NCBI GenBank assembly: GCA_029974315.1
Contig: JARKSE010000030.1
Coordinates: 1 to 38,362, forward strand
Direction: 5' to 3'
DNA: 38,362 nucleotides
Origin: Paludibacteraceae bacterium
Lineage (GTDB): Bacteria; Bacteroidota; Bacteroidia; Bacteroidales; Paludibacteraceae
Shown: positions 2,835-20,704 of the stretch, in pieces
How positions within the stretch are numbered: position 1 is the stretch's first letter
Layout of the letters: each line of letters opens with the position of its first letter
Notes under the pieces: model-generated
What the model saw: only the letters and a program-made list of their open reading frames with translations
What the model was told of the DNA's origin: nothing
Databases searched by the model: none
Program-made: the position numbers and the translations under genes

Positions 2835-3710
2835 CTATAAAACATTAATTATCTGCTCTTTAATTTGTTCCAATTCATCTTTCATTTGAACTACAAGAAT
2901 CTGCATTTCGCTGTGGTTTGATTTAGAACCTAACGTATTGATTTCGCGTCCCATTTCTTGAGTAATAAAACCAAGTTTTTTACCAGCAGTACTTTCATGA
3001 CGCATTGTCTCCAAAAAATAATTCAAATGGTTATTTAGACGCAGTTTTTCTTCATTTACATCAAGTTTTTCGATGTAAAAAATTAGTTCTTGTTCTAATC
3101 GGTTTCGGTCAATAGTTACCTTATCCTCCATAGCTTGTAGATTTTCTTCTAAGCGTGCCTTTATTTTAGCAATGCGTTCGCCTTCATACTGGTCTACCTC
3201 GTTGAGTAATGAGGAAAGACGCTCTATTTTACTCACAAACATTGCTTCAAGAGCTTTACCCTCTTGCACACGAAACTCAATAAGTTGCTCTATCGCTTCA
3301 TTGATTGTTTTTACAATAAAATCCCACTCATCATCTTCAACCGAAGTACTTTCCGACTTTAAAACATCAGGCAAACGCAACAAAACTTCCATCCAATTTT
3401 CAGGAATGGGAACGTTTAATTTTTCAGCAGTTTCTGTAATTTGATGGTAATAATTCTCAATTACCGTTTGGTTAATGTGGTTTACAACTTGAGAGCCTGC
3501 ATCTTCGATATACAATGCAAAATCAACTTTTCCACGCTCCAATCTTTGTGTGATAAGATTGCGTATTTCGATGTCTTTTTCGCGATACAGCAGAGCTATG
3601 CGTGTTGACACATCTATCTGTTTGCTATTAAGCGATTTAATTTCTACAGTAATTTTTTTATTGTTATATTCGCAAGAGGCCTTTCCATAACCTGTCATCG
3701 ATAAAATCAT
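2835..3710 (-). CDS. yicC: YicC/YloC-family endoribonuclease
   Basis: The YicC family has been described as hexameric endoribonucleases that cleave structured RNA, and E. coli YicC is linked to decay of the RyhB small RNA; the role in Bacteroidota is inferred. The 291-residue length is typical. Diagnostic features: N-terminal MILSMTGYGKA; a basic/acidic alpha-helical middle; and the conserved C-terminal DUF1732 region EMGREINTLGSKSNHSE (about 253-269), which holds conserved acidic residues. A long helical stretch about residues 160-215 is rich in E, K and R. It is the first gene of the yicC-gmk unit, with a -7 element TAAATTTG just upstream (3741-3748). Confidence 0.95.
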   Translation of the reverse strand: MILSMTGYGKASCEYNNKKITVEIKSLNSKQIDVSTRIALLYREKDIEIRNLITQRLERGKVDFALYIEDAGSQVVNHINQTVIENYYHQITETAEKLNVPIPENWMEVLLRLPDVLKSESTSVEDDEWDFIVKTINEAIEQLIEFRVQEGKALEAMFVSKIERLSSLLNEVDQYEGERIAKIKARLEENLQAMEDKVTIDRNRLEQELIFYIEKLDVNEEKLRLNNHLNYFLETMRHESTAGKKLGFITQEMGREINTLGSKSNHSEMQILVVQMKDELEQIKEQIINVL

Positions 3711-3740
3711 AGGCTAACATTTAAGTAAATTTATGAAATG

Positions 3741-3748
3741 CAAATTTA
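3741..3748 (-). promoter_or_regulatory. Bacteroidota -7 element for yicC-gmk
   Basis: Minus strand reads TAAATTTG, a full match to TAnnTTTG, 31 bases upstream of the yicC ATG. I see no clear TTG at the -33 position. Confidence 0.6.
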
Positions 3749-3832
3749 CAATTTCTTTTCCGAATAATAACTCTTTTTAGCAAATGCTTATAAAATGAAC
3801 GTCAAGCATTCTGAAATATAAATTAAAATGCG

Positions 3833-3840
3833 TATCTTTG
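3833..3840 (+). promoter_or_regulatory. Bacteroidota -7 element for tsaB
   Basis: TATCTTTG, a full TAnnTTTG match, 23 bases before the tsaB ATG. Together with the yicC element it makes a divergent promoter region of 153 bases (3711-3863). Confidence 0.7.
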
Positions 3841-3863
3841 CAAGTGTTGAGTTTTTATAACCG

Positions 3864-4559
3864 ATGGCTACTATTTTGCATATAGAAACAGCTACTGACG
3901 TATGCTCCACTGCACTTTCAGAACATGGAGAGTTGTTGTTTTCTAAAATTTCTTTCGAAGGTCCTGCACACGCCACTAATCTTCCTCTATTCATAGAAGA
4001 AACGCTTGATTTTGCACGCAAACACAACAAACTACCCAATGCCATTGCAGTAAGTTCAGGTCCTGGTTCTTACACAGGTTTACGCATTGGTGTATCTACA
4101 GCAAAAGGTTTGTGTTACGGATTAGAAGCGAAACTTATTGCAGTCAATACATTACGGTTAATTACACAAAATGCTTTGTTGCACATAAAAGAGGCTAACG
4201 CTCTTATTTGTCCGCTTATCGATGCTCGACGCATGGAGGTTTATACTGCGATATATGATGAAAATTTGAATGAAATACAACCTGTTGAAGCAAAAATAAT
4301 AGACGAATCGGCATTTATTGATTTACTTGACCAACGGATTGTCTATTTTTGTGGTAATGGTGCCGAAAAATGTAAAACGCTGATAACGCATTCAAATGCT
4401 CGTTTTTTAGCTGATATACATCCATTAGCTAATCATATGATTCACTTAGCCGAAGAGGCTTATCAGGCTTGTCTGTTTGAAGATGTGGCCTATTTTGAAC
4501 CGTTCTATTTAAAAGAATTTCAAGCTACAGTTAGCAAAAAATCAATTATCAATTCCTAA
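3864..4559 (+). CDS. tsaB: tRNA t6A synthesis protein TsaB
   Basis: TsaB is the partner of TsaD (with TsaE and TsaC) that makes N6-threonylcarbamoyladenosine at position 37 of ANN-decoding tRNAs. It has the ASKHA fold but lacks the catalytic metal site. The 231-residue product begins MATILHIETATDVCSTALS, then the family signature SSGPGSYTGLRIGVSTAKG (about 65-83), followed by AVNTLRLI. Length is normal for TsaB and too short for TsaD. It starts right after a -7 element and is followed 4 bases later by the DUF4290 gene, so the two are probably cotranscribed. Confidence 0.96.
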   Translation: MATILHIETATDVCSTALSEHGELLFSKISFEGPAHATNLPLFIEETLDFARKHNKLPNAIAVSSGPGSYTGLRIGVSTAKGLCYGLEAKLIAVNTLRLITQNALLHIKEANALICPLIDARRMEVYTAIYDENLNEIQPVEAKIIDESAFIDLLDQRIVYFCGNGAEKCKTLITHSNARFLADIHPLANHMIHLAEEAYQACLFEDVAYFEPFYLKEFQATVSKKSIINS

Positions 4560-4563
4560 ATAT

Positions 4564-5187
4564 ATGAAATATTCTCAAAAGACCGATTTAATTTTACCAG
4601 AATATGGACGTAATATTCAACAAATGGTAACACACGCTGTTACAATAGAAGATCGTTCTGAACGTACACGTTGTGCTAAAACCATTATCGATATTATGGG
4701 TAATATGTTCCCCTACCTGCGTGACGTTGACGGCTTTAAACATAAATTGTGGGACCATCTTGCTATTATGTCGGAATTTAAACTCGACATTGATTATCCA
4801 TTTGAAGTAGTAAAACCAACTTCGTTACATCAAAAGCCGGAAAAAATTCCTTATAACACACAACATATCCGCTACATGCATTATGGTCGTCTATTGGAAA
4901 CGCTTATCAAAAAAACAGTAGAATATCCCGAAGGCGAACGTCGTGAAGATTTGATTGATTTAATAGCTAACCACATGAAAAAAAGCTATTTAACATGGAA
5001 TAAGGAAGTGGTCGAGGATGGTAAAATATTTGATGATTTACGCGAATTATCGCAAGGTAATATCAATATAAATTCAGAATCGCTGACGTTAACCGCTTCG
5101 CGTGATATTATGAATAGAGGTCGCTCTACTAGCAAAAATCACAATAATAAAACAAGAAATAAAAATAGTAATCGGAATAAGAAATAA
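4564..5187 (+). CDS. DUF4290 family protein, Bacteroidota-specific
   Basis: This 207-residue protein belongs to DUF4290, a family of unknown function known, as far as I recall, only from Bacteroidota, where it often sits beside cell-wall or core genes. The N-terminal 170 residues look like a compact soluble helical domain (RNIQQMVTHAVTIEDRSERTRCAKTII near the start; IRYMHYGRLLETLIKK at about 99-114). No signal peptide or membrane segment is visible. The last 25 or so residues (from about 183) are a low-complexity tail rich in Asn, Lys, Arg and Ser, plausibly disordered and able to bind nucleic acid; that is inference. It follows tsaB by 4 bases, and its stop is separated by 1 base from the convergent HsdR_N gene. 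Confidence 0.85.
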   Translation: MKYSQKTDLILPEYGRNIQQMVTHAVTIEDRSERTRCAKTIIDIMGNMFPYLRDVDGFKHKLWDHLAIMSEFKLDIDYPFEVVKPTSLHQKPEKIPYNTQHIRYMHYGRLLETLIKKTVEYPEGERREDLIDLIANHMKKSYLTWNKEVVEDGKIFDDLRELSQGNININSESLTLTASRDIMNRGRSTSKNHNNKTRNKNSNRNKK

Positions 5188-5188
5188 G

Positions 5189-5650
5189 TTATCTCGTTGC
5201 TAGAAGATTTGAATACGATAAGATATCTGGATTAAAAAGATACCGTTTATTGGCAACATCCACTTTGCAAAAAATATGTGTCAATCCATTGCTAACGAGC
5301 AAAAAAGGAACTTGTAAATTAAGATTATAAACCGCTATTTGGTCAAATACAGCTTGTGTTAACCGCACATGAGGTGCTTTGTATTCAACAATCATTAATG
5401 GTTTATAATTTTCGTCATAAACGACTGTGTCGCAGCGTTTTATAAGTCCATTGTACGTAATAGTGGTTTCGTTGCTTAAACGTGTTGGTGGCACTTCAAG
5501 TGCTTCGATAAGATGAGTTATCATATTTTGACGAACCCACTCTTCTGGCGTCAACGTTACATAGCGACGTCGAATACGATCAAAAATCTGTTGCTTTGTA
5601 CCAACAGTTTTAATCTTGAAGTTATAAGCAGGTAAGTTTAATTTGACCAT
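5189..5650 (-). CDS. Orphan HsdR N-terminal-like nuclease domain protein
   Basis: A 153-residue stand-alone protein matching the N-terminal (HSDR_N) domain of type I restriction R subunits, without the helicase domains and with no HsdM or HsdS nearby. The PD-(D/E)xK nuclease pattern is present: D74 in RCDTVVYD, E89-Y-K91 in IVEYKAP, and the QxxxY motif Q104-Y108 (DQIAVYN). The N-terminal part (IFDRIRRRYVTLTPEEWVRQN, about 22-42) is typical of the Bacteroidota orphan version. The catalytic residues suggest an active metal-dependent nuclease, perhaps in DNA repair or processing rather than defence, since its neighbours are housekeeping genes (amn, holA). That role is inference. Expressed from its own divergent promoter (5670-5677). 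Confidence 0.85.
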   Translation of the reverse strand: MVKLNLPAYNFKIKTVGTKQQIFDRIRRRYVTLTPEEWVRQNMITHLIEALEVPPTRLSNETTITYNGLIKRCDTVVYDENYKPLMIVEYKAPHVRLTQAVFDQIAVYNLNLQVPFLLVSNGLTHIFCKVDVANKRYLFNPDILSYSNLLATR

Positions 5651-5669
5651 ATTCTAAAATTTCCGAATA

Positions 5670-5677
5670 CAAAGATA
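5670..5677 (-). promoter_or_regulatory. Bacteroidota -7 element for HsdR_N gene
   Basis: Minus strand reads TATCTTTG, a full match, 20 bases before the ATG at 5650. It abuts the start of the divergent amn gene. Confidence 0.65.
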
Positions 5678-5700
5678 ATAAAATGAAAGATAATATTGCT

Positions 5701-6474
5701 ATGAAAACAAAAGAGGATATCGTAAAAAATTGGTTAGTGCGCTATACACAACGACCGCTCGAACAATTCGATAAATATATATTGTTGTGCAATTTCAATA
5801 ATTATGTAGAGAAATTTGCTGAAATGTTTAACGTACCCGTGGTTGGTGTTAAAAGTAATATGCCAAATGCTTCAGCCAATGGCATTACTATTATCAATTT
5901 TGGAATAGGTAGTCCTAACGCGGCGTTAATTATGGATTTATTGTCAGCAATTAGTCCTAAGGCTGTTCTCTTTTTAGGAAAATGTGGTGGTTTAAAAGAT
6001 AAAAATCAAATTGGCGATTACATTTTACCTAGTGCTGCTATTCGTGGTGATGGTACTTCAAATGACTACTTTCCACCTGAAATCCCCGCTTTACCTGCGT
6101 TTAACTTACAACGTTCAGTATCATCAAATATCCGTGATTTCGGACATGATTATTGGACTGGAACGGTTTATACAACCAACCGTCGCGTATGGGAACACGA
6201 TGAAAAATTCAAAGAAACATTACGAATAACTCGTGCTCAAGCTATCGATATGGAAACAGCCACTCTATTCAGTGTTGGTTTTTTTAATTCTATTCCTACA
6301 GGTGCGTTATTGTTAGTATCTGATATGCCAATGCATGAAGCCGGTATAAAAACAGAAGAAAGTGACAAACAAGTGACTAAACAATTTGCCGAAGAACACT
6401 TAAGCATTGGTGTTAAATCGTTAGAATCTCTTCAAACTAACAGTAAAACAATCAAACACTTACGTTACGAATAA
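5701..6474 (+). CDS. amn: AMP nucleosidase
   Basis: Hydrolyses AMP to adenine and ribose 5-phosphate, adjusting the adenylate pool. The product matches the short Bacteroidota-type AMP nucleosidase of about 258 residues with the nucleoside phosphorylase fold: NFNNYVEKFAE near the start, ITIINFGIGSPNAALIMDLL (about 63-82), LFLGKCGGL (about 94-102), GDGTSNDYFPPE (about 118-129), and the catalytic-face segment IDMETATLFSVG (about 186-197). I place the start at ATG 5701 because homologues begin MKTKEDIV; an in-frame ATG at 5683 would add five to six residues and overlap the leader of the divergent gene. The stop overlaps the holA ATG by one base (TAATG), suggesting translational coupling. Confidence 0.95.
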   Translation: MKTKEDIVKNWLVRYTQRPLEQFDKYILLCNFNNYVEKFAEMFNVPVVGVKSNMPNASANGITIINFGIGSPNAALIMDLLSAISPKAVLFLGKCGGLKDKNQIGDYILPSAAIRGDGTSNDYFPPEIPALPAFNLQRSVSSNIRDFGHDYWTGTVYTTNRRVWEHDEKFKETLRITRAQAIDMETATLFSVGFFNSIPTGALLLVSDMPMHEAGIKTEESDKQVTKQFAEEHLSIGVKSLESLQTNSKTIKHLRYE

Positions 6475-7490
6475 TGGCAAAACAAGTCTGGACATACGAA
6501 CAGCTGCTGGCTTCGCTAAAACGCAAAGAGTACAAGCCTGTATATATGCTTATGGGCGACGAGTCGTTCTATATCGATCAAATCTCCGATTATATAGAAG
6601 AACACGTTTTAACTGAAGAAGAAAAAGCATTCAACCAAACTATTTTATATGGTAAGGATACTACATTGACAGACATTATTATGGCCGCTAAGCGCTATCC
6701 TATGATGTCTCCGTATCAAGTTATCATTGTAAAAGAAGCACAACACATCAAAAATTTTGATGATTTACAGTTCTATTTAGAAAAACCTTTAAATACCACA
6801 TTATTAGTTTTTTGCTATAAATACAGCAAACTGGACGGGCGCAAAAAATCGACTCAAGAGATCGAAAAGAAAGGTATTCTATTTGAATCGAAAAAGTTGT
6901 ATGATAATCAGGTGGCTGGCTGGATAGAATCATATGTCAAATCGATGAATATCAGCATTAACAGCAAAGCTGCAAATATGTTGGCAGAATACCTTGGAAA
7001 TGATTTGACACGCATAGTTCACGAGGTTGAAAAGCTATTAATTACCAAACCCAAAGAACAAGCTTCTATTACGCCGGAATTGATCGAACGTAACATTGGA
7101 ATCAGCAAGGATTACAATAATTTTGAATTAGTTAGTGCTTTGACTAACAAGGATATACTCAAATGTAATCGCATTGTTGATTATTTTGGTAAGAACAGCA
7201 AAAACAATCCGTTAGTGGTGACAATTACCGTTATATTTAACTTTTTCTCTAATCTCTTACTTTACCACTCATTGAAAGATAAAAGTCAAATGAACGTGGC
7301 TAATGAACTCAAAATAAACCCCTATTTTGTTAAGGATTTTCAACAAGCGGCTAAACTATACAACTCCAGCAAAGTCACACAAGTTATCAGCGATATTCGT
7401 AAAGCAGACGTTCAGAGTAAGGGATTTGTCAATAGTTCCATTTCTGATTATGATCTATTGAAAGAATTGGTTTTCAAAATTTTACATTAA
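6474..7490 (+). CDS. holA: DNA polymerase III delta subunit
   Basis: Delta is the clamp-opening subunit of the replication clamp loader. The 338-residue product has the family length and pattern: N-terminal AAA-like domain with PVYMLMGDESFYIDQISDYIEE (about 19-40), the loop APYQVIIVKEAQ-type segment SPYQVIIVKEAQHIKNF (about 80-96), the helical lid with LAEYLGNDLTRIVHEVEKLL (about 165-184) and the C-terminal collar helices. No Walker A is expected in delta and none is present. Its start overlaps the amn stop by one base, and the next gene begins 18 bases after its stop, so it is the middle gene of an amn-holA-dehydrogenase unit. Confidence 0.95.
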   Translation: MAKQVWTYEQLLASLKRKEYKPVYMLMGDESFYIDQISDYIEEHVLTEEEKAFNQTILYGKDTTLTDIIMAAKRYPMMSPYQVIIVKEAQHIKNFDDLQFYLEKPLNTTLLVFCYKYSKLDGRKKSTQEIEKKGILFESKKLYDNQVAGWIESYVKSMNISINSKAANMLAEYLGNDLTRIVHEVEKLLITKPKEQASITPELIERNIGISKDYNNFELVSALTNKDILKCNRIVDYFGKNSKNNPLVVTITVIFNFFSNLLLYHSLKDKSQMNVANELKINPYFVKDFQQAAKLYNSSKVTQVISDIRKADVQSKGFVNSSISDYDLLKELVFKILH

Positions 7491-7508
7491 ATTCATTATT
7501 TGTCAGCT

Positions 7509-8465
7509 ATGGAAATTCTATTTACAACAAAACTACCTTTAGATGGTTTTTCATCACTAAGTGCTCATAAATTAATTATGCCTTCTGTTCCACGATTTTC
7601 ACGCGCTGAGTTAGAACGCTTGATTACACAGTGTGATGTGTTGGTTTCTACATTTGACTATCCGATAGAGAAAACACTGATAGAGAAAGCTCAACGCTTG
7701 AAATTGATAACGAATTTTGGGGTGGGATTTAATAATGTAGATATAGAGACAGCTGCACAACACCAAATAATAGTAACCAATACACCAGATCCCGTTATTG
7801 AACCAACAGCAGAACAAACAATGACCTTAATGCTTGCTGTGGCTCATCGTACAGCGGAACTCGACCGAAAAATGCGCCAAACTAACGACATAGAAATAGG
7901 CGTGATGAATAATTTAGGCATTAGTATTCATGGTAAAACTTTGGGGATAATCGGTCTTGGTAGAATTGGACAAGCTGTGGCAAAACGCGCATTAGCCTGC
8001 GGTATGCGCATTATTTATCATAATCGTAAACGTGCAGACAAAACCATAGAAGAAGTACTTCAAGCCACTTATGTCAGTTTTGATGAGTTGCTTACACAAT
8101 CTGATTTTATTTCATTACACCTACCCTATTACAAAGAATCACACCATTTAATAAACGAAGCGGCTTTTCAAAAAATGAAAAATGGTGCCACGCTTATCAA
8201 TACCGCACGTGGTGCTATTGTCGATGAACAAGCATTAATTAAAAATTTGAAAAATGGTAAACTTTGGGGTACAGCACTTGATGTGTTTGAAAAAGAGCCT
8301 CAAATTTCGCCCGAGTTATTTTCGCTTGACAATGTAGTACTCTCTCCTCACATTGGCACAGGAACTATTGATGGACGTTTGGCCATGTGTGAGTGGGTGT
8401 CTAAAAATATTCTGCACTTTGAAAAGCACGAATTTGACAAACTTGACTGGGTAAATAAGTTCTAA
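7509..8465 (+). CDS. D-2-hydroxyacid dehydrogenase, NAD-dependent
   Basis: A 318-residue member of the D-isomer specific 2-hydroxyacid dehydrogenase family (glyoxylate/hydroxypyruvate/phosphoglycerate reductase group). Visible: substrate-side NFGVGFNNVD (about 75-84), Rossmann motif GLGRIGQAV (about 146-154), the catalytic Arg in NTARGAIVD (about 230), catalytic Glu in LDVFEKEP (about 259) and catalytic His in LSPHIGTGT (about 280). There is no C-terminal ACT domain, so it is not a long-form SerA. The exact substrate cannot be read from the sequence. I chose ATG 7509 over the in-frame TTG at 7500 because the beta-strand MEILFTTKLP begins there. Last gene of the amn-holA unit; ends before a bidirectional terminator. 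Confidence 0.9.
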   Translation: MEILFTTKLPLDGFSSLSAHKLIMPSVPRFSRAELERLITQCDVLVSTFDYPIEKTLIEKAQRLKLITNFGVGFNNVDIETAAQHQIIVTNTPDPVIEPTAEQTMTLMLAVAHRTAELDRKMRQTNDIEIGVMNNLGISIHGKTLGIIGLGRIGQAVAKRALACGMRIIYHNRKRADKTIEEVLQATYVSFDELLTQSDFISLHLPYYKESHHLINEAAFQKMKNGATLINTARGAIVDEQALIKNLKNGKLWGTALDVFEKEPQISPELFSLDNVVLSPHIGTGTIDGRLAMCEWVSKNILHFEKHEFDKLDWVNKF

Positions 8466-8612
8466 AAGTCTCAAATAATTTTTCAATTTCAACTTTTACT
8501 CTAAATCAGAAGAAATAATAAATACGTCATTTAAAGGTACTTAATAGTGCTTTTTATATTGTCAGTAATGAGTAAGTAGCAAAGTAAAATAAACATCACA
8601 TATTGAACAAAT

Positions 8613-8647
8613 AAAAAATAGAGCAGAAAAAATCTGCTCTATTTTTT
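8613..8647. terminator. Bidirectional terminator between dehydrogenase and nifJ
   Basis: Perfect 15-base stem (8613-8627 with 8633-8647), loop AAAAA, with A-run and T-run flanks that serve both strands. The rest of 8466-8661 is AT-rich and I see no gene in it; a weaker hairpin lies near 8533-8554. Confidence 0.85.
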
Positions 8648-8661
8648 TATTATGATATGAA

Positions 8662-11600
8662 CTACTCCCAACCTTGTGAAAGTAATCGTTTGTAGCTCTT
8701 ATAGCGCCATTTTGCATTCTCTTCAGCAGCTTCAAATAATTCAGCTGCTTCATTAGGATATTGCTTCATTACTGAAGAGAAACGTACTTCACTTTGTAAG
8801 AACTCTTGGAACTTACTCCAATCTGGTTCTTTACTGTCAAGTGTAAATGGATTTTGACCTGCTTCTTCTAACATTGGGTTGTAACGCCACAATTGCCAGT
8901 AGCCGCATGCTACAGCTTCTGCTTGCTGAGCTTGTGATTTACCCATACCTGCTTTCAAACCATGGCTAATACATGGTGAGTAAGCAATAATGAGCGATGG
9001 ACCAGGATAAGCCTCTGCTTCGCGGAATGCTTTCAAACATTGTGCTTGATCTGCACCCATAGCTACTTGAGCAACGTACACATAACCATACGTAGTAGCA
9101 ATCATTCCTAAGTCTTTTTTACGAACGCGCTTACCGGAAGCTGCAAATTTAGCAATTGCACCCATTGGAGTTGACTTAGACGCTTGCCCACCTGTATTTG
9201 AATACACTTCGGTATCAAGAACTAAAATATTCACATCTTTACCTGAAGCAATCACATGGTCAAGACCGCCATAACCAATATCATACGAAGCACCGTCACC
9301 ACCAATAATCCATTGAGAACGTTTTACTAAATAGTGGCTCAATTCGCTAATTTGTTTACAAGAATCACAGTCGCAAGCCTCAACTGCTGGCACAATTTGA
9401 ACTGCTAATTCTTTAGTTTTATCAGCGTCATTGCGATTTTCAATCCATTCAGTAAAGAGTCCTTTCAACTCGTCAGAACAACACGTACTAGATTGAGCTT
9501 CTTGCATAAGTCGTACTAAGCGATCACGCATTTTATCATTTGCCAGAGTCATACCCATACCAAACTCACAAAAATCTTCGAACAGTGAATTTGCCCAAGC
9601 TGGACCTTGACCTTTTTCATTGGTTGTATAAGGAGTTGAAGGCACTGAACCTGAATAAATTGACGAACAACCAGTTGCATTGGCAACCATTTCTCTATCG
9701 CCAAACAGTTGTGTAATTAATTTTACATAAGGTGTTTCACCACAACCAGAACAAGCACCAGAGAACTCAAATAAAGGTGTTGCAAACTGTGAGTTTTTTA
9801 CATTAGCTTTGATATCTACTAAATGCTGTTTAGTTTTAACATTATCAACGCAATAATTCCAGTTTTCAACTTGATTTAATTGAGTTTCGAGTGGTTTCAT
9901 AGTTAAGGCTTTACCACCTTTTTTAGGATTACCAGGACAAACATCAGCACAGTTACCACATCCTAAACAGTCAAGCACGTCCACTTGAATACGGAAAGTC
10001 ATACCGTCAAACGATTTACCAACTGCTTTTAACATGTCAAAATTAGCACCTTTTTGTTCCGATTCATCTAATACAAATGGGCGAATAGAGGCATGAGGAC
10101 ACACATAAGCACACTTATTACATTGGATACAATTGTCTGGTTCCCATTCTGGAACAAATGCAGCTACACCGCGTTTTTCATATTTTGATGTTCCTTGATG
10201 CCAAGTTCCATCTTCAATTCCTTTAAATGCAGATACTGATAACGAATCACCATTTTGGGCATTGATAGGACGAACAACTTCGTTAATAAATGCAGGATCA
10301 TTATTTTCTACTGCTTTATCATTTGGTAATGATGCCCAAGCGGGATCTACAACTAATTGTTCGTATGCACCACCACGGTCAACGGCTGTATAGTTTTTCT
10401 TAACAACTTCTTCTCCCTTTTTCCCGTACGATTTAAGAATGAATTTTTTCATTTCTTCTACTGCTAAATCTACAGGGATAACTTCTGTTATACGGAAGAA
10501 GGCAGATTGTAAAATAGTGTTCGTGCGATTACCTAACCCTATCTCTTGTGCAATTTTTGTTGCATTAATATAATAAACTTTAATGTTTTTCTTAGCGAAA
10601 TAACGTTTTACATGATTTGGTAAATGTTTAGCTAACTCTTCACCAGTCCAAATGGTATTCAGTAAGAATGTACCATTTTCACGCAAACCACGTGTTACAT
10701 CGTACATATTTAGATAAGCTTGTACGTGGCAGGCTACGAAATTTGGCGTATGTACCAAATATGTACTACGAATCGGTGTATCACCAAAACGTAAATGTGA
10801 GCATGTAAAACCACCAGATTTTTTGGAGTCATATTCAAAATAGGCTTGGCAGTATTTATTAGTGTTATCACCAATAATTTTCACTGAGTTCTTATTAGCA
10901 CCAACAGTACCATCAGCACCTAAACCGTAGAATTTAGCTTCAAATAAACCTGCGCCACCTAAGGTAATTTCCTCTTTTCGTGGAAGCGAAGTAAATGTGA
11001 CATCATCTTCAATACCAATAGTAAACTGATTTTTAGGCATTGCCAATGCTAAATTTTCAAACACTGACAAAATTTGAGATGGTGTTGTGTCCTTAGAACC
11101 TAAACCATAACGACCACCAACTACTAATGGTGCATTTTTTTGATTGTATAATACATCTTTTACGTCTAAGTAAAGTGGTTCACCTGTTGCTCCAGGTTCT
11201 TTTGTACGATCTAAAACTGCAATACGTTTAGTTGTTTTAGGAAGTACAGATAAGAAATGTTTAGCAGAGAACGGACGATACAAATGTACTGACACCAAAC
11301 CCACTTTTTCACCTTGAGCTCTTAAGTGGTCAACTGCTTCACGAATAGCTTCGGTAACTGAACCCATAGCAATAATCACATGTTCAGCGTCTTCTGCTCC
11401 GTAATAATCGAATAAGCCATATTTACGCCCTGTGATTTTAGAAATTTCGTTCATGTACTCTTCTACGATAGCGGGAACAGCATCATAGAAAGGATTAGAA
11501 CTTTCGCGATGTTGGAAGAAGTGATCAGGGTTTTCAGCCATACCGCGTGCCACAGGACTTTCTGGAGTCAATGCACGACTACGGAATTCAGCCAAGGCTT

Positions 11601-12198
11601 TTTGATCAATAAGGCCTGCAAGGTCTTCGTTTTCAAGTAATTCAATTTTTTGAATCTCATGTGATGTACGGAAACCGTCGAAGAAGTTCACAAAAGGTAC
11701 ACGGCTTTTGATAGTCGATAAATGCGCAACTGCAGCCAAATCCATAACTTCTTGTACAGAACCTTCTGCTAACATAGCAAAGCCTGTTTGACGACAAGCC
11801 ATAACGTCTTGATGATCACCAAAAATACATAGCGCATGAGATGCTATTGTACGTGCAGATACGTGAAACACACAAGGAAGGAGTTCACCTGCAATTTTGT
11901 ACATATTTGGTATCATCAACAACAAACCTTGGGATGCTGTGTAAGTTGTAGTTAATGCACCTGCTTGCAATGAACCATGTACGGCACCAGCAGCACCACC
12001 TTCAGATTGCATCTCTTGGACTAAAACAGTTTCACCGAAAATATTCTTACGTCCAGCAGCAGACCATTCGTCGACATACTCTGCCATCGTTGACGACGGC
12101 GTAATTGGGTAAATAGCAGCCACTTCTGAGAACATATATGAGATATGTGCTGCAGCTTGGTTACCATCACAAGTAATAAACTTCTTTTGTTTTGCCAT
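8662..12198 (-). CDS. nifJ: Pyruvate:ferredoxin (flavodoxin) oxidoreductase
   Basis: Single-chain homodimeric PFOR that oxidises pyruvate with CoA to acetyl-CoA and CO2, reducing ferredoxin or flavodoxin; the central catabolic enzyme of anaerobes. At 1178 residues it is full length with all domains: N-terminal pyrimidine-binding domain (AAIYPITPSS about 27-36, EMQSEGGAAGAVHGS about 62-76), CoA-binding central domains, a ferredoxin-like insert with two 4Fe-4S motifs CIQCNKCAYVCPHASI (about 689) and CLGCGNCADVCPGNP (about 742), the third cluster beginning CSGCGETPY (about 812), and the TPP diphosphate site GGDGASYDIGYGGLDHV (about 962) followed by NTGGQ. Monocistronic: own promoter with -33 and -7 elements and own terminator. 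Confidence 0.98.
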   Translation of the reverse strand: MAKQKKFITCDGNQAAAHISYMFSEVAAIYPITPSSTMAEYVDEWSAAGRKNIFGETVLVQEMQSEGGAAGAVHGSLQAGALTTTYTASQGLLLMIPNMYKIAGELLPCVFHVSARTIASHALCIFGDHQDVMACRQTGFAMLAEGSVQEVMDLAAVAHLSTIKSRVPFVNFFDGFRTSHEIQKIELLENEDLAGLIDQKALAEFRSRALTPESPVARGMAENPDHFFQHRESSNPFYDAVPAIVEEYMNEISKITGRKYGLFDYYGAEDAEHVIIAMGSVTEAIREAVDHLRAQGEKVGLVSVHLYRPFSAKHFLSVLPKTTKRIAVLDRTKEPGATGEPLYLDVKDVLYNQKNAPLVVGGRYGLGSKDTTPSQILSVFENLALAMPKNQFTIGIEDDVTFTSLPRKEEITLGGAGLFEAKFYGLGADGTVGANKNSVKIIGDNTNKYCQAYFEYDSKKSGGFTCSHLRFGDTPIRSTYLVHTPNFVACHVQAYLNMYDVTRGLRENGTFLLNTIWTGEELAKHLPNHVKRYFAKKNIKVYYINATKIAQEIGLGNRTNTILQSAFFRITEVIPVDLAVEEMKKFILKSYGKKGEEVVKKNYTAVDRGGAYEQLVVDPAWASLPNDKAVENNDPAFINEVVRPINAQNGDSLSVSAFKGIEDGTWHQGTSKYEKRGVAAFVPEWEPDNCIQCNKCAYVCPHASIRPFVLDESEQKGANFDMLKAVGKSFDGMTFRIQVDVLDCLGCGNCADVCPGNPKKGGKALTMKPLETQLNQVENWNYCVDNVKTKQHLVDIKANVKNSQFATPLFEFSGACSGCGETPYVKLITQLFGDREMVANATGCSSIYSGSVPSTPYTTNEKGQGPAWANSLFEDFCEFGMGMTLANDKMRDRLVRLMQEAQSSTCCSDELKGLFTEWIENRNDADKTKELAVQIVPAVEACDCDSCKQISELSHYLVKRSQWIIGGDGASYDIGYGGLDHVIASGKDVNILVLDTEVYSNTGGQASKSTPMGAIAKFAASGKRVRKKDLGMIATTYGYVYVAQVAMGADQAQCLKAFREAEAYPGPSLIIAYSPCISHGLKAGMGKSQAQQAEAVACGYWQLWRYNPMLEEAGQNPFTLDSKEPDWSKFQEFLQSEVRFSSVMKQYPNEAAELFEAAEENAKWRYKSYKRLLSQGWE

Positions 12199-12251
12199 TT
12201 TGTTAAGTATTTTTAGTGGAATAAAATTTATTTTTTAGACTTATAAAGTGA

Positions 12252-12281
12252 CAAAGGTATAAAAAAATAGTGAGTTATCAA
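12252..12281 (-). promoter_or_regulatory. Full Bacteroidota promoter for nifJ
   Basis: Minus strand has TTG at 12281-12279, a 19-base spacer and TACCTTTG at 12259-12252, matching the phylum's TTG/-33 and TAnnTTTG/-7 pattern. The 5' leader to the ATG at 12198 would be about 45 bases. Confidence 0.75.
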
Positions 12282-12368
12282 GAATAATTCCAACAAATTA
12301 GAGATTTAATATTTGTTAGAATTTTGTAGTTTTGTTTGACCTTTTTTTAGTACAAGCACAAATTCTAT

Positions 12369-13094
12369 TTAACCCTCCTTTGCATTTAATATATCAACTA
12401 GATGAATAGTGCGAATTAATAATCCTTGTTTTTGACAATAACTACTGATATTCATTAAACACGAAGCTTCTGTACTTACAATATATTCTGCTTGGGTTTT
12501 TAAGGCGTTTTCTACTTTTTTTGCAACCATAGCCGTTGAAATATCGGTGTTTTTTATGGCAAATGTACCCCCAAAACCACAACACGTAGTGCTCTCTTCC
12601 ATCTCTAGCAACTCTAAACCTTTTACATGACTTAATAAGCGTTCTGGTTCATCTGTTAGTCCATATTCTCGAATCGAAGAACATGAACGATGTAATGTTA
12701 CTTTATGAGGAAACATCGCTCCTAAATCAACTGTTTTTAGATGATTACATAAGAAATCTGAGAGTTCAAATAAATTATTTGACATCTGATTGCATAACGC
12801 AAGTTTTTCCGTATCGTCAGGAAATAGTTTAGCATAATGCCTTTTGATAAATCCAGTACAAGAACCCGAAGGGGAAATTATCGGGATTGTAGGATCGTAA
12901 TCATTGAAAAACTTCTCTGCTAAAGCCTTACTCTCTGCCCAATAACCACTATTAAACGCTGGTTGTCCACAACAAGTTTGGTTGGGATTATAAATTACTT
13001 CACAACCTACTTTTTGAAGAATTTCTAGCGTATTTTGACCCGTTTGGGGATAGAGTTGATCAATATAACAAGGTATAAAAAGTTGAACTTTCAT
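12369..13094 (-). CDS. LutA/GlpC-like cysteine-rich Fe-S oxidoreductase subunit
   Basis: A 241-residue protein with two cysteine-rich CCG domains: C9, C41-C42-G43 and C79 in the first, C138, C171-C172-G173 and a cysteine near 212 (EASCLMN) in the second. This layout matches LutA/YkgE, the subunit of the LutABC lactate oxidase, and related heterodisulfide-reductase-type subunits. Known family role: part of an iron-sulfur L-lactate dehydrogenase; here neither LutB nor LutC is adjacent, so the partner is unknown. It begins 3 bases after the stop of the endonuclease/phosphatase-fold gene, so it is the last gene of a three-gene unit whose other products are exported. That pairing gives no obvious functional link. 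Lactate function is only moderately likely. Confidence 0.8.
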   Translation of the reverse strand: MKVQLFIPCYIDQLYPQTGQNTLEILQKVGCEVIYNPNQTCCGQPAFNSGYWAESKALAEKFFNDYDPTIPIISPSGSCTGFIKRHYAKLFPDDTEKLALCNQMSNNLFELSDFLCNHLKTVDLGAMFPHKVTLHRSCSSIREYGLTDEPERLLSHVKGLELLEMEESTTCCGFGGTFAIKNTDISTAMVAKKVENALKTQAEYIVSTEASCLMNISSYCQKQGLLIRTIHLVDILNAKEG

Positions 13095-16234: not shown

Positions 16235-16645
16235 ATGAAACCTTCTCACATTGAGCACATTGGTATCGCAGTAAGCAGTTTGGATGAGGTAATCCCCTAC
16301 TACGAAAAACTCCTTGGTCAAAAATGTTATTCTATCGAAGAAGTTGCCGACCAAAAAGTAAAAACTGCTTTTTTCAAAGTTGGTCAAACCAAAATCGAAC
16401 TATTAGAAGCTACAAGCCCAGATAGTCCAATTGCTAAGTGGCTCGAAAAAAATCCTCGTGGTGGCGTACATCACATTGCTTTTAATGTTGATAACGTACA
16501 AGTTGCTTTGGACGAGTGTGCTGATGCAGGCATACAATTAATAGACACAAAACCACGTAAAGGTGCTGAAGGGTTGAATATTGCTTTTCTACACCCAAAA
16601 TCAACACATGGTGTTTTAACCGAATTATGTGAACAACCAAAATAA
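16235..16645 (+). CDS. mce: Methylmalonyl-CoA epimerase
   Basis: Interconverts (R)- and (S)-methylmalonyl-CoA, linking B12-dependent methylmalonyl-CoA mutase to the decarboxylase encoded next door. The 136-residue length is typical. It has the vicinal oxygen chelate fold: [24 protein letters not shown] at the N-terminus with H8 as first metal ligand, [17 protein letters not shown] in the middle, [13 protein letters not shown] (about 76-88) with the second His ligand, and GVLTELCEQ near the end with the Glu ligand. First gene of the operon; mmdA starts 20 bases after its stop. The mutase genes are not in the window. Confidence 0.96.
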
Positions 16646-16665: not shown

Positions 16666-18225
16666 ATGGAAAATCAAGAAAATTTAAAAAAATTAATAGC
16701 AAAACGCGCCGAAGCTCAACTTGGTGGCGGTCAGAAAAGTATTGATGCACTTCACGCAAAAGGTAAATTTACCGCTCGTGAGCGCATTAATCTTCTTTTA
16801 GATGAAGGCAGTTTTGAAGAAGTAGATATGTTTGTAACCCACCGCTGTACCGATTTTGGTATGGACAAAAAAGTATTTTTGGGTGATGGTGTTGCAGTTG
16901 GTAGTGGTACTATTGATGGCCGTTTAGTGTTTGTTTTTGCACAAGATTCTACTGTTATTGGTGGTTCTTTATCAGAAACAATGGCGCAAAAAATTTGCCA
17001 CGTTATGGATATGGCTATGAAACTTGGCGCTCCTATTATCGGTTTGAACGACTCGGGTGGTGCACGTATACAAGAAGGTGCAAACGCTTTAGCTGGTTAT
17101 GCCGAAATTTTCGAACGTAACATTTTAGCTTCGGGCGTCGTTCCACAAATCTCTGTCATTATGGGACCTTGTGCCGGTGGTGCTGTTTATTCTCCAGCAT
17201 TAACGGACTTTGTTATGATGACAGAAGAAAATAGTTATATGTTTATCACAGGTCCTACTGTTGTAAAAGCTGTAACTGGTGAGGATGTAACCGTTGAAGA
17301 ATTGGGTGGAGCTCGCATACATGCAACAAAATCAGGTGTAACTCACTTTACTGCTCCAACCGAAGAAGACGCGTTAAAAGAAGTACGTCGCCTAATATCA
17401 TTTATTCCACAAAACAATATGGAAGAAACTCCTGTTGTTGAATGTACTGACCCTATCGATCGTGCAGATGAAGGTTTGAATGATGTAGTGCCAGCTAATC
17501 CAAACAAGCCTTACAATGTAAAAGATATTATCTACAACATTATTGACAATGGTGATTTCATGGAAGTTCATCAAGATTTTGCAAAAAATATTGTATGTGG
17601 ATTTGCACGTTTTAATGGACAATCGACTGGTATTATTGCCAATCAACCCAACTGGTTAGCTGGTGTACTCGACTGTGACGCTTCACGTAAAGCAGCTCGT
17701 TTTATCCGTTTTTGCGACGCTTTTAACATTCCAATCTTAACTTTGGTTGACGTACCGGGTTTCTTACCTGGAACAGGACAAGAATATGCCGGTATTATTG
17801 ACCACGGTGCAAAATTAATGTTTGCTTATGGCGAAGCTACTGTGCCTAAGGTAACAGTAACACTCCGTAAATCGTATGGTGGTGCACACATTGTCATGAG
17901 CTGTAAACAATTACGTGGTGATTTCAACTATGCATGGCCAAATGCAGAAATTGCAGTAATGGGTGCATCTGGAGCTATTGGAATTTTAGAAGCTAAAAAT
18001 TTAAAAGCTATAGAAGATCCTGCAGAAAAAGCAAAATTTATTGCTGAAAAAGAGGCTGAATATCAAGATAAATTTGCTAGCCCTTATCAAGCTGCATCTA
18101 GAGGATATATCGACGATGTTATTGAACCACGCGACACACGTTTCCGTATTATTCGTGCTTTCCAAACGTTACAAACAAAACGTGTAACTAATCCTTTAAA
18201 GAAACACTCTAATATACCTTTATAA
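16666..18225 (+). CDS. mmdA: Methylmalonyl-CoA decarboxylase carboxyltransferase (alpha) subunit
   Basis: Transfers the carboxyl group of (S)-methylmalonyl-CoA to carrier-bound biotin, releasing propionyl-CoA. The 519-residue crotonase-fold carboxyltransferase has both halves: [21 protein letters not shown] (about 25-45), [12 protein letters not shown] (about 126-137), [16 protein letters not shown] (about 167-182), then [13 protein letters not shown] (about 361-373), [12 protein letters not shown] (about 402-413) and the usual end [19 protein letters not shown]. The same family includes propionyl-CoA carboxylase beta subunits. The adjoining oadG and oadB genes and the absence of a biotin carboxylase gene point to the Na+-pumping decarboxylase instead; that is the main reason for the call. 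Confidence 0.93.
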
Positions 18226-18227
18226 TT

Positions 18228-18596
18228 ATGATTTTACTAACAATAAACTGGACAAATGCACTCAGCATTACCTTGTTAGGATTGGGTATTGTATTTGTGG
18301 TTTTGTGTTTACTCATTCTATTATTGGTTGTTTTTGGTAAAGTAATGACACCTAAAGTACGTGTACCTAAGGCTGTTAGAACACCAAAAGATGCTAAAGT
18401 AGAAATTAGTGATAATACAGAATTCCACGAAGTACAACTTCCTGCAAATGCAAGTGCTGCCATTGCTATGGCATTACATTTATATTATTCCGATGTGCAC
18501 GACCAAGATAGTCACGTTATTACCATCAAAAAGGTAGAACGCCGCTATTCACCTTGGAGTGCAAAAATTTATGGTATCAATAATTTAGTAAGATAA
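18228..18596 (+). CDS. OadG-family (delta/gamma) membrane subunit of Na+-pumping decarboxylase
   Basis: A 122-residue protein with one membrane helix (about 9-37, SITLLGLGIVFVVLCLLILLLVVFG) followed by a cytoplasmic tail with a charged linker and a helical region about residues 70-90 (ANASAAIAMALHLYYSD). It ends in RRYSPWSAKIYG, which resembles the conserved C-terminus of these subunits. Known role in the family: it holds the soluble carboxyltransferase and biotin carrier to the membrane beta subunit. It starts 2 bases after mmdA and is followed 7 bases later by the biotin carrier gene, which fits a stoichiometric complex. Confidence 0.88.
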   Translation: MILLTINWTNALSITLLGLGIVFVVLCLLILLLVVFGKVMTPKVRVPKAVRTPKDAKVEISDNTEFHEVQLPANASAAIAMALHLYYSDVHDQDSHVITIKKVERRYSPWSAKIYGINNLVR

Positions 18597-18603
18597 TATC
18601 CGT

Positions 18604-19350
18604 ATGAAAAAATTTAAATTTATAATAGACGGCAGCAAATACGAAGTTTCTGTAAACGAAATTGAAAATAATGTAGCCGAAGTCGAAGTAAATGGCACCC
18701 CATTTACAGTGGAAATAGAAAGAGAACAAAAAAGTACTGTTACTACTCGCCCAAGTGTAAAACCAGCCACCGTAGCTCCTGCAGCTTCACATAGCACAGC
18801 GGCTAGTACAATGGTTGTTAAATCACCACTTCCTGGTAGTATCATGAAAGTTTTGGTAGCTGTTGGCGATAATGTAAAACGTGGTGATGTATTGTTAACC
18901 ATGGAATCTATGAAAATGGAAAACAATATTTTAGCAGAAGTTGATGGTGTTATCAAAGCAGTTGCAGTAGAACCTGGTAAAAATGTTTTGCAAGATGATA
19001 AATTAGTAGAACTAGAAACTAAAGGTTCATCACACTCTGCTCCTACTGAAAAACCAACTCCTGCACCAGCGCCCAAAGTTGAGGCTCCTAAGCCTGCTCC
19101 AGTAGCTGCACCTAGTGCACCAAAACCTGTGGTTGGTGGCTTTAAAGTAAAATCGCCACTTCCTGGCAGTGTACTTAAAGTGGTTGTTGCTGAAGGTCAA
19201 GCCGTAAAACGTGGAGATGTATTATTAACTTTAGAATCCATGAAAATGGAAAACAATATCTTGGCAGAAAAAGATGGCGTTGTAAAATCAATTGCAGTTA
19301 CTGCTGGTCAAAGCGTTATGCAAGATGATTTATTATTAATCATGGACTAA
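18604..19350 (+). CDS. Biotin carrier subunit with two tandem biotinyl domains
   Basis: Carries the carboxyl group from the alpha subunit to the membrane pump. Residues 1-40 form the small beta domain usual at the start of these carriers. A Pro/Ala/Thr linker (about 45-68) leads to biotinyl domain 1 (about 72-138) with biotin lysine K104 in ESMKMEN; a second Ala/Pro linker (about 141-178) leads to domain 2 (about 182-248) with K214 in an identical ESMKMEN. The two domains are 46 of 67 residues identical by my count. Usual carriers of this type have a single domain and about 120-170 residues, so the 248-residue form looks like an internal duplication. Both lysines and the flanking Met residues are intact, so both could be biotinylated. 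Two-domain architecture is common in lipoyl E2 proteins but unusual here. Next gene, oadB, starts within 20 bases. Confidence 0.93.
18817..19347 (+). repeat. Internal direct duplication encoding two biotinyl domains
   Basis: Unit 1 is 18817-19017 and unit 2 is 19147-19347, 201 bases each, offset by 330 bases. Protein identity is 46 of 67 residues, while codons differ at many synonymous positions (for example around 18890-18960 against 19220-19290), so the duplication is not very recent. Confidence 0.9.
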
Positions 19351-19369
19351 TTTGAAAAACGTTATCATG

Positions 19370-20704
19370 ATGAAACATTTAAAATATTTTTTATTAATTA
19401 TTGCTTCGATAGTCACCTTTTCAAATCCTTTGTCTGCACAAGACGAGGTCTTGTCGGTTGACGTATCAGAAGTGGTTGCTGTAAGTTCCGATTCTGTTGC
19501 CATAAGTGCAGAAGATAACGCTATGGAGGCAGATATCAACGTGGGCGAAAGTATGATAGAATTTTGGGAAAGCACAGGGATTTTTGAAATTTTTCAAAAT
19601 TGGAAAATTTTAGTCATGTTACTTGTGTCATTCGTATTATTGTACTTGGCTATTGTTAAACAATTTGAGCCACTCTTATTGATGCCAATTGCTTTTGGTA
19701 TGTTGTTGAGTAATTTACCTAATGCTGGGCTTTTTACTCCCGAATTGTTTGCTGATGGCGTTATACACTGGGATCAATTCTCACACGCAGGTTTATTAGA
19801 CTATTTGTATCTTGGTGTTAAACTCGGTATTTATCCTTGTCTTATCTTCCTGGGTGTAGGCGCTATGACAGACTTTGGTCCGCTCATTGCTAATCCTAAA
19901 AGTCTACTACTTGGTGCGGCAGCACAACTTGGTATTTTTGGCACTTATTTAGGTGCTATTGCATTAGGTTTTCTACCTCGCGAAGCTGCTTCTATTGGTA
20001 TCATTGGTGGTGCCGATGGACCAACAGCTATTTTCTTGACTACAAAATTAGCACCAGAATTACTTGCCCCTATTGCTGTAGCAGCTTATTCATACATGGC
20101 TTTGGTTCCTGTTATTCAACCACCTATTATGAAAGCTTTAACAACGCATAAAGAGCGTGCTATTCGTATGAAACAATTACGTAGCGTTTCTAAAACTGAA
20201 AAGATAGTATTCCCTATTGTTGTTACAGTCATTGTATCTTTACTGTTACCAGATGCTGCTGCTCTTATCGGTAGTTTAATGTTAGGAAACTTAATGCGTG
20301 AGTCAGGTGTGGTTGAACGATTAAGCAAAACAGTACAAAACGAGCTTATGAATATTGTAACCATATTCTTAGGTCTTACAGTGGGTGCCACAGCTACAGC
20401 TGCAACATTCCTAAATGTCAAAACTTTGATGATTTTAGGTATGGGTATTGTAGCATTTAGCTTTGGTTCCGCTGGTGGTGTTTTATTAGCTAAATTTATG
20501 AACTTGTTTTCTAAAGATAAAATCAATCCGCTTATTGGTTCTGCGGGCGTTTCAGCCGTGCCAATGGCCGCTCGTGTGTCACAAGTGGTAGGTCAAGAAG
20601 AAGACCCAGGTAACTTCCTTTTAATGCACGCTATGGGACCTAATGTAGCTGGCGTTATCGGATCTGCTGTAGCTGCAGGTTTCTTGCTCAGTGTACTTGG
20701 CTAA
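19370..20704 (+). CDS. Na+-translocating decarboxylase beta subunit with N-terminal extension
   Basis: The OadB/MmdB family membrane subunit that decarboxylates carboxybiotin and pumps Na+ out. Core signatures are intact: [15 protein letters not shown] (about 207-221) with the Na+-site Asp, [15 protein letters not shown]-type segment [48 protein letters not shown], and the end [21 protein letters not shown]. The N-terminus is unusual: a signal-peptide-like stretch ([23 protein letters not shown]) and an acidic linker of about 45 residues (rich in D, E, S, V) precede the first core helices. I place the start at ATG 19370; ATG 19367 adds one residue, and an in-frame TTG at 19352 adds six. Last gene of the operon. 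Confidence 0.93.

Follow-up and report, generated by a model that had tools for sequence, protein, structure and literature searches.

MmdC, the biotin carrier of the Na+-translocating methylmalonyl-CoA decarboxylase of Veillonella and Propionigenium, consists of a head, an Ala/Pro linker and a biotinyl domain with the motif MKM, and to our knowledge the Mmd carriers described so far have one biotinyl domain each. The window analysed here (the whole stretch of 38,362 nucleotides from contig JARKSE010000030.1 of a Paludibacteraceae bacterium, assembly GCA_029974315.1) encodes a 248-residue carrier with two intact biotinyl domains, which raises the questions of how old and how widespread the second biotin arm is, and what it might do. 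The carrier resembles MmdC in its head, Ala/Pro linker and MKM motif and in its operon with MmdA, OadG/MmdD and MmdB, but differs in that its one head bears a second linker and a second biotinyl domain. Gene order is methylmalonyl-CoA epimerase, MmdA, OadG, carrier, MmdB, with the following features:

16235–16645, + strand: methylmalonyl-CoA epimerase (NCBIfam TIGR03081, 163.9 bits, cutoff 114.95)
16666–18225, + strand: MmdA, decarboxylase carboxyltransferase (PF01039, 655 bits; TIGR01117, 786.3 bits, under its cutoff of 998.8)
18228–18596, + strand: OadG/MmdD-type membrane anchor (PF04277, 52 bits, and sequence), with C-terminal tail AAIAMALHLYY...RRYSPWSAKIYG
18604–19350, + strand: two-armed biotin carrier, 248 aa (open reading frame; PF00364 twice)
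18604–18720, + strand: N-terminal head, about residues 1–39, single copy, the presumed anchor (model; common to single-domain carriers)
18721–18813, + strand: linker 1, largely disordered in the model (sequence, AlphaFold)
18814–19014, + strand: biotinyl domain 1, residues 71–137 (PF00364, 64.1 bits; pLDDT about 95)
18913–18915, + strand: codon of K104, predicted biotin acceptor of domain 1 (MKM motif, alignment A1)
19015–19143, + strand: linker 2, 43 aa, rich in Ala and Pro, largely disordered in the model (sequence, AlphaFold)
19144–19344, + strand: biotinyl domain 2, residues 181–247 (PF00364, 67.1 bits; pLDDT about 95)
19243–19245, + strand: codon of K214, predicted biotin acceptor of domain 2 (MKM motif, alignment A1)
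19367–20704, + strand: MmdB, carboxybiotin decarboxylase and Na+ pump subunit (PF03977, 550.7 bits; TIGR01109, 542.4 bits, cutoff 190.6)

The original prediction of a Na+-pumping methylmalonyl-CoA decarboxylase operon was borne out by the epimerase, MmdA, OadG and MmdB profiles around the carrier, the locus combining an MKM biotinyl domain with a carboxyltransferase, an OadG-type anchor, an OAD-beta pump and an epimerase. The NCBIfam equivalog for MmdC (NF047903, MmDecMmdC) scored the carrier at 145.1 bits, below its cutoff of 200. The MmdB start codon was picked by eye, the profile scan having covered 19361–20701; at 19367–19600 the gene encodes a signal-peptide-like N-terminal extension of about 80 residues ahead of the OAD_beta domain, and the MmdB relatives of one Paludibacteraceae genus, g22, are shorter (about 395 aa).

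Operons at other loci varied. Loci L060 (~3476–11885) and L065 (~3416–12506) hold two adjoining mmd operons: the carrier has two domains in one of them and a single domain in the other, whose MmdB is divergent. In L073, L084, L099 and L169 mmdA is split into two pieces, whether by frameshift, by assembly error or in reality, and L155–L158 and L160 (genomes G002, G282, G280, G305 and G297) show the order mce–mmdA–oadG–single carrier, with mmdB unmatched in the flanks fetched (short for L157 and L158). A link between an RRYSPW motif in OadG and domain number was considered and set aside: the motif accompanies 45 of 94 two-domain and 13 of 44 single-domain carriers, and the link was unsupported over independent pairs.

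Within the one open reading frame, the PF00364 profile (cutoff 22.1 bits) found both predicted biotinyl domains, each with the identical 12-residue acceptor motif, confirming K104 and K214 as the candidate acceptors. The domains agree at 46 of 67 ungapped positions centred on the lysine and at 146 of 201 nucleotides of the matching windows (a repeat finder reported a 192 nt repeat at 76%), and are separated by the 43-residue linker, rich in Ala, Pro and Lys; identity and Ala/Pro linker were thus reproduced as first described. AlphaFold, run on a 28-row alignment, returned two separate barrels (pLDDT about 95), a fairly modelled head of four beta strands (pLDDT 74–81) and disordered linkers (pLDDT <50 at residues 42–65 and 142–175); Foldseek superposed one barrel (70 columns) on the Pyrococcus horikoshii carrier 5gua at 0.6 Å. 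K104 and K214 are invariant across the 28-row alignment A1, and both are presumably biotinylated.

The two units have diverged widely at synonymous sites (dS 0.82, NG86 script), so the duplication is not recent and has been kept for some time, as had been supposed. The same value, with the occurrence of such carriers in many independent assemblies, speaks against an assembly artefact or a recent tandem duplication. When the window is compared with its genus mate (G001), about 1 of 26 synonymous sites differs in the head region (18604–18738) and about 18 of 45 in each biotinyl domain, a low value at the head that either local conservation of the gene's 5′ end or recombination could produce.

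Neither arm appears to be wearing out. Both lysine motifs are present in all 96 two-domain carriers extracted (the window's, L056–L135 and L175–L189), a figure that is not a species count, since some genomes appear among the loci twice, under different names (e.g. L086/L185), and MKM is invariant in both domains of the 95 uncut carriers, one cut row having been dropped. Measured against the genus mate, the window's dN/dS is 0.030/0.583 for domain 1 and 0.013/0.562 for domain 2, values that at sequence level show purifying selection on both. Decay of one unit, part of what would have undone the original claim, is contradicted by the retention of the lysine in all two-domain carriers extracted. 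Over the 95 carriers the two domains also differ consistently according to their position in the chain, at +29, −33, −4, +9 and +32 relative to the lysine.

Two-domain carriers proved common in the family. Among 358 Paludibacteraceae genomes searched, 256 had a listed carrier match at 1e-20, and at least 83 of these, by hand count, encode a two-domain carrier: 82 with matches covering both domains (including G045 and G326, counted although their matches do so only partly) and G247, whose match is short but which is two-domain on reading. They are spread over many genera, three of which (g22, g2 and g8) contain both forms; the window's genus, represented by two genomes, has them in both, and most named relatives are metagenome-assembled genomes. 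The supposition that one domain is the norm is therefore partly contradicted within Paludibacteraceae and holds for the phylum, where a draw of 395 genomes gave 88 matches at 1e-22 and the sole two-domain one was the window's, although more divergent carriers escape this threshold.

Outside the family, two-domain carriers appear to be rare. A draw of 393 genomes from the order gave, among the 203 matches listed at 1e-25, two multi-domain carriers from other families, in G563 and G550. The G563 carrier (L196) shares 63% identity with the window's, and the MmdA of this genome (L076) clusters with genus g22, so that this g22-like operon in a genome placed in another family points to transfer or to a misbinned contig. 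G550, a one-contig Bacteroidales genome, encodes a carrier of 364 aa with three biotinyl domains (L195:5162–6253, G550:C1) that are 87–93% identical among themselves, while its two genus mates have one domain each; the expansion seems both recent and independent, and additional arms have therefore probably originated two or more times.

Mapping on a tree, the check proposed with the original prediction, placed the two-domain carriers in clusters: on an MmdA tree of 127 rows (85 two-domain) domain number changes 7 times, at least 6 of them forced by starred branches, against a mean of 35 changes with shuffled labels, although relatedness alone could give such clustering. Nested within a two-domain clade are 19 single-domain carriers from genus g22. 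Each of the 21 single carriers with this type of sequence resembles domain 2 (best identity 0.82–0.93) more closely than domain 1 (0.70–0.76). In six of them linker Ala/Pro content is 0.63–0.77, compared with medians in two-domain carriers of 0.62 for linker 2 and 0.37 for linker 1. With a domain like domain 2 and a linker like linker 2, these carriers have most likely lost linker 1 and domain 1.

Trees of the domains themselves are weak, having only 67 columns. On a tree of 242 domains, the row closest to domain 1 was another carrier's domain 1 in 93 of 97 multi-domain carriers, a set that includes near-copies of one genome; the exceptions were the three-domain L195, L010 and L182, where the carrier's own domain 2 was closest, and L181, where a single carrier's domain was. 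Over all rows the label of domain 1 changed 12 times and that of domain 2 17 times (about 74 in shuffles). In a chosen subset of 46 carriers, drawn from two large groups and leaving out L010, L182, the g8 carriers and others, position labels changed 4 times (31 in shuffles) and a single clade of all first domains was not rejected (p-AU 0.53). The duplication, which took in the biotinyl domain and left the anchoring head single, thus looks old.

A candidate second user of the carrier came from weak PF00364 matches in frames of about 590–600 aa, which pointed to a carboxyltransferase whose relatives include OadA, PycB and transcarboxylase 5S. The genus mate's copy has Propionibacterium transcarboxylase 5S (structure 1rqb) as its top PDB match, at 1.1e-43; the NCBIfam 5S equivalog (NF008984) gave 185.9 bits, below its cutoff of 827, and the NCBIfam OadA model fell far under its cutoff. 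The enzyme retains RDMWQ, LKDM and HxH, which we take to be catalytic motifs (LKDM and HxH in the copies of both the window's genome, G000, and G001). Its C-terminal biotinyl-like domain has QTNGRGLE or similar in place of MKM, and no lysine stands in the acceptor column of any of the 30 copies read (23 from two-domain and 7 from single-domain genomes). Having lost its own biotin lysine, the enzyme would need an outside biotin carrier, and in G001 (99% complete) PF00364 found no strong candidate other than the Mmd carrier. In the window's genome the gene (G000:C177:37217–38983, 92% identical to the G001 copy) lies outside the mmd operon, on C177 as against C82 for the carrier; among the frames of more than 150 aa in the 8–9 kb around it in both genomes, no MmdA or carrier was seen by eye. 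Genus g8 and a few others have a related OadA with an intact MK lysine, adjoined in G008 and G241, by eye, by a pump-subunit-like frame.

We surveyed 80 chosen genomes for this enzyme with the G001 protein as query, and 73 had a match at 1e-40. An apparent lack of the enzyme from many genomes at 1e-60 (38 of 59 matched) was at least partly a threshold effect, G010, G015, G094, G135 and G022 being unmatched there and matched at 1e-40. Among 45 two-domain genomes, 39 have a full-length 5S-like enzyme, three an OadA type (G229, G231 and G241; lysine read in G229 and G241), one a copy cut by a contig end (G326) and two none (G208 and G271). All 25 of the 39 that were read lack the lysine (the 23 above, G010 and G094), the other 14, like nine of the 18 shortened enzymes described below, having been judged by match ends and frame length. 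The 13 single-domain genomes outside g22 comprise seven with the full lysine-less form (all read), three with an OadA type (G003, G008 and G253; lysine read in G008 and G253) and three with none; G270 has an OadA type plus the lysine-less form. The three-domain G550 had no 5S-like match at 1e-40 and has an OadA-related frame of 712 aa.

Genus g22 departs from this pattern. In 18 of its 21 single-domain genomes the match ends before the C-terminal domain, a shortened form seen in none of the 45 two-domain genomes, while G134, called single-domain from the E-value of its carrier match, and G143 keep the domain and G173 has no match. All nine shortened enzymes read (L275–L283) end in a tail resembling the C-terminus of OadG, which replaces the biotinyl-like domain. 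Scores of local alignments to OadG were equalled by 0–2 of 1000 shuffles in every case, against 234–999 of 1000 for five control enzymes with the lysine-less domain; the OadG query came from the genome itself for four of the nine and from G062 for the other five and the controls. In oxaloacetate decarboxylase the carboxyltransferase subunit is reported to be bound by the OadG-type subunit through its C-terminus (PMC7145394), and both the OadG-like tail and the lysine-less domain may have a docking role. G143, the deepest single carrier on the MmdA tree (with weak support, 80–87), is without arm 1 and keeps the lysine-less domain, which suggests that arm 1 was lost first.

All 12 two-domain genomes in a check of 26 genomes for PF00364, PF01039, AccC and FabD have one PF01039 protein and no AccC-level match; above 50 bits, PF00364 found the carrier alone in them, except in G241 (an OadA with its own domain). 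FabD was present in 10 of the 12 and not found in G000 or G021. AccC-level matches (1e-100) occur in 94 of the 358 Paludibacteraceae genomes, 11 of them two-domain and all of these in genus g2. A role as BCCP of acetyl-CoA carboxylase, shared with AccC, was rejected for the carrier, AccC being absent at this level from the window's genome (82% complete) and from G001 (99% complete), and present in 11 of the 83 two-domain genomes. It is also missing from eight single-domain genomes of the 26 (G003, G006, G008, G014, G022, G023, G062 and G144), which makes its absence a trait of the lineage and not of two arms. The near-complete G001, G012, G010, G015, G019, G133 and G135 have FabD, MmdA as their single PF01039 protein and no AccC-level match; a standard acetyl-CoA carboxylase was therefore not found in them.

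What, then, might the second arm do? The reading that we prefer, tentatively and at somewhat less than an even chance, is that one anchored two-armed carrier is common to MmdA and the 5S-like enzyme. The carrier of the Na+-pumping decarboxylase would have one anchor and two biotin arms of different reach; MmdA and the solitary 5S/OadA-like enzyme without a biotin lysine would both use it, each being reached from the single anchor. Carboxyl groups could then pass among methylmalonyl-CoA, oxaloacetate/pyruvate and the MmdB pump, uniting transcarboxylase and decarboxylase in one complex, with biotinylation, complex formation and flux as we infer them from the genes. MmdA would presumably correspond to the 12S subunit of the Wood–Werkman transcarboxylase. 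Like that 12S/5S/1.3S enzyme of Propionibacterium (PMC2909200), the proposed system has a separate biotin carrier and a solitary carboxyltransferase resembling 5S; unlike it, its genes are dispersed and it would have membrane pump subunits and two arms.

The original prediction had offered a faster carboxyl transfer or two partners as the use of the arms, and for the latter the lysine-less carboxyltransferase is now a candidate. Arm 1 and the lysine-less domain were both lost in one lineage, so that their linkage amounts in effect to a single case. The seven single-domain genomes outside g22 with the same enzyme mean that two arms are not required for it. Against sharing stand also G134 and G143, which kept the domain after losing arm 1, the OadA-type enzymes of G229, G231 and G241, and the unmatched G173, G208, G271 and G550. 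So do the distance of the 5S-like gene from the mmd operon and the failure of both AccC absence and the RRYSPW motif to follow domain number. A fuller scheme, which we think improbable as a whole, would make the two-armed carrier the main or only biotin protein of cells without biotin carboxylase: MmdA and the 5S-like enzyme would exchange carboxyl groups through the arms, MmdB would turn the surplus into a Na+ gradient, the hub might supply malonyl-CoA from methylmalonyl-CoA and acetyl-CoA, and the lysine-less domain would be a dock, replaced by the OadG-like tail after the loss of arm 1.

Plain higher throughput is nearly as likely as a shared carrier, and likewise possible rather than probable: the two arms may be redundant and serve one enzyme, giving more carboxybiotin locally or a longer reach between MmdA and MmdB, with no second carboxyltransferase. 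The operon type is the same as in single-domain relatives, and G550 pairs three near-identical domains with the absence of a 5S-like match. E. coli E2p has three lipoyl domains, 73% identical, that can act redundantly (PMC8421416), and the Gcd of Clostridium symbiosum contains one GcdC1 and one GcdC2, whose AP regions measure 48 and 39 residues (PMC7145394) and which may act in a similar way. However, the consistent position-specific differences between the domains exceed what redundancy needs, and loss of domain 1 in one lineage was accompanied by change in another carboxyltransferase.

It is unlikely that domain number is near-neutral, recombination expanding and contracting the repeats and copies staying intact since either works and a dead arm would compete. 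The seven state changes on the MmdA tree would fit this, as would the retention of domain 2 in the 21 single carriers of one lineage, six of which, those examined, have a linker like linker 2, and the near-identical pairs in L010 (0.88) and L182 (0.84), which suggest gene conversion or renewed duplication; yet the states are clustered, as relatedness alone can make them, and distinct signatures of domains 1 and 2 were kept through deep divergence. That one domain has become structural or docking and lost its biotin is very improbable, for although lysine-less biotinyl-like domains do occur here, in the 5S-like enzyme, lysine and MKM stand in both domains of every two-domain carrier examined.

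We found no relevant literature on tandem, two, multiple or duplicated biotinyl domains in open-licence PubMed Central. The number of carrier domains is a classic question for lipoyl domains, and no natural biotin counterpart to their varying number was found in that literature. The nearest known arrangements are the GcdC1/GcdC2 pair of C. symbiosum glutaconyl-CoA decarboxylase and the multi-lipoyl E2 of pyruvate dehydrogenase. The former likewise brings two biotin arms with different linker lengths to one Na+-pump complex, but there the arms belong to two proteins with an N-terminal anchor apiece (PMC7145394), whereas the window's carrier has its domains in series on one head; the latter likewise places carrier domains in tandem on flexible linkers, from one to three according to species, but carries lipoyl instead of biotin and is fused to a catalytic core (PMC8421416).

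With one-, two- and three-domain carriers occurring naturally in the same operon type, comparing them offers a way to test what additional arms are used for. Should the 5S-like enzyme indeed use this carrier, a transcarboxylase and a Na+ pump would be coupled in bacteria that, judging by the operon, are presumed propionate formers, and cells without the usual biotin carboxylase would gain a route for carboxylation. Among the Paludibacteraceae, bacteria of the gut, the rumen and other anaerobic settings, a second biotin arm is often present, old and well kept, and the way in which one lineage lost it hints that, with two arms, a single carrier may be able to serve two different enzymes.
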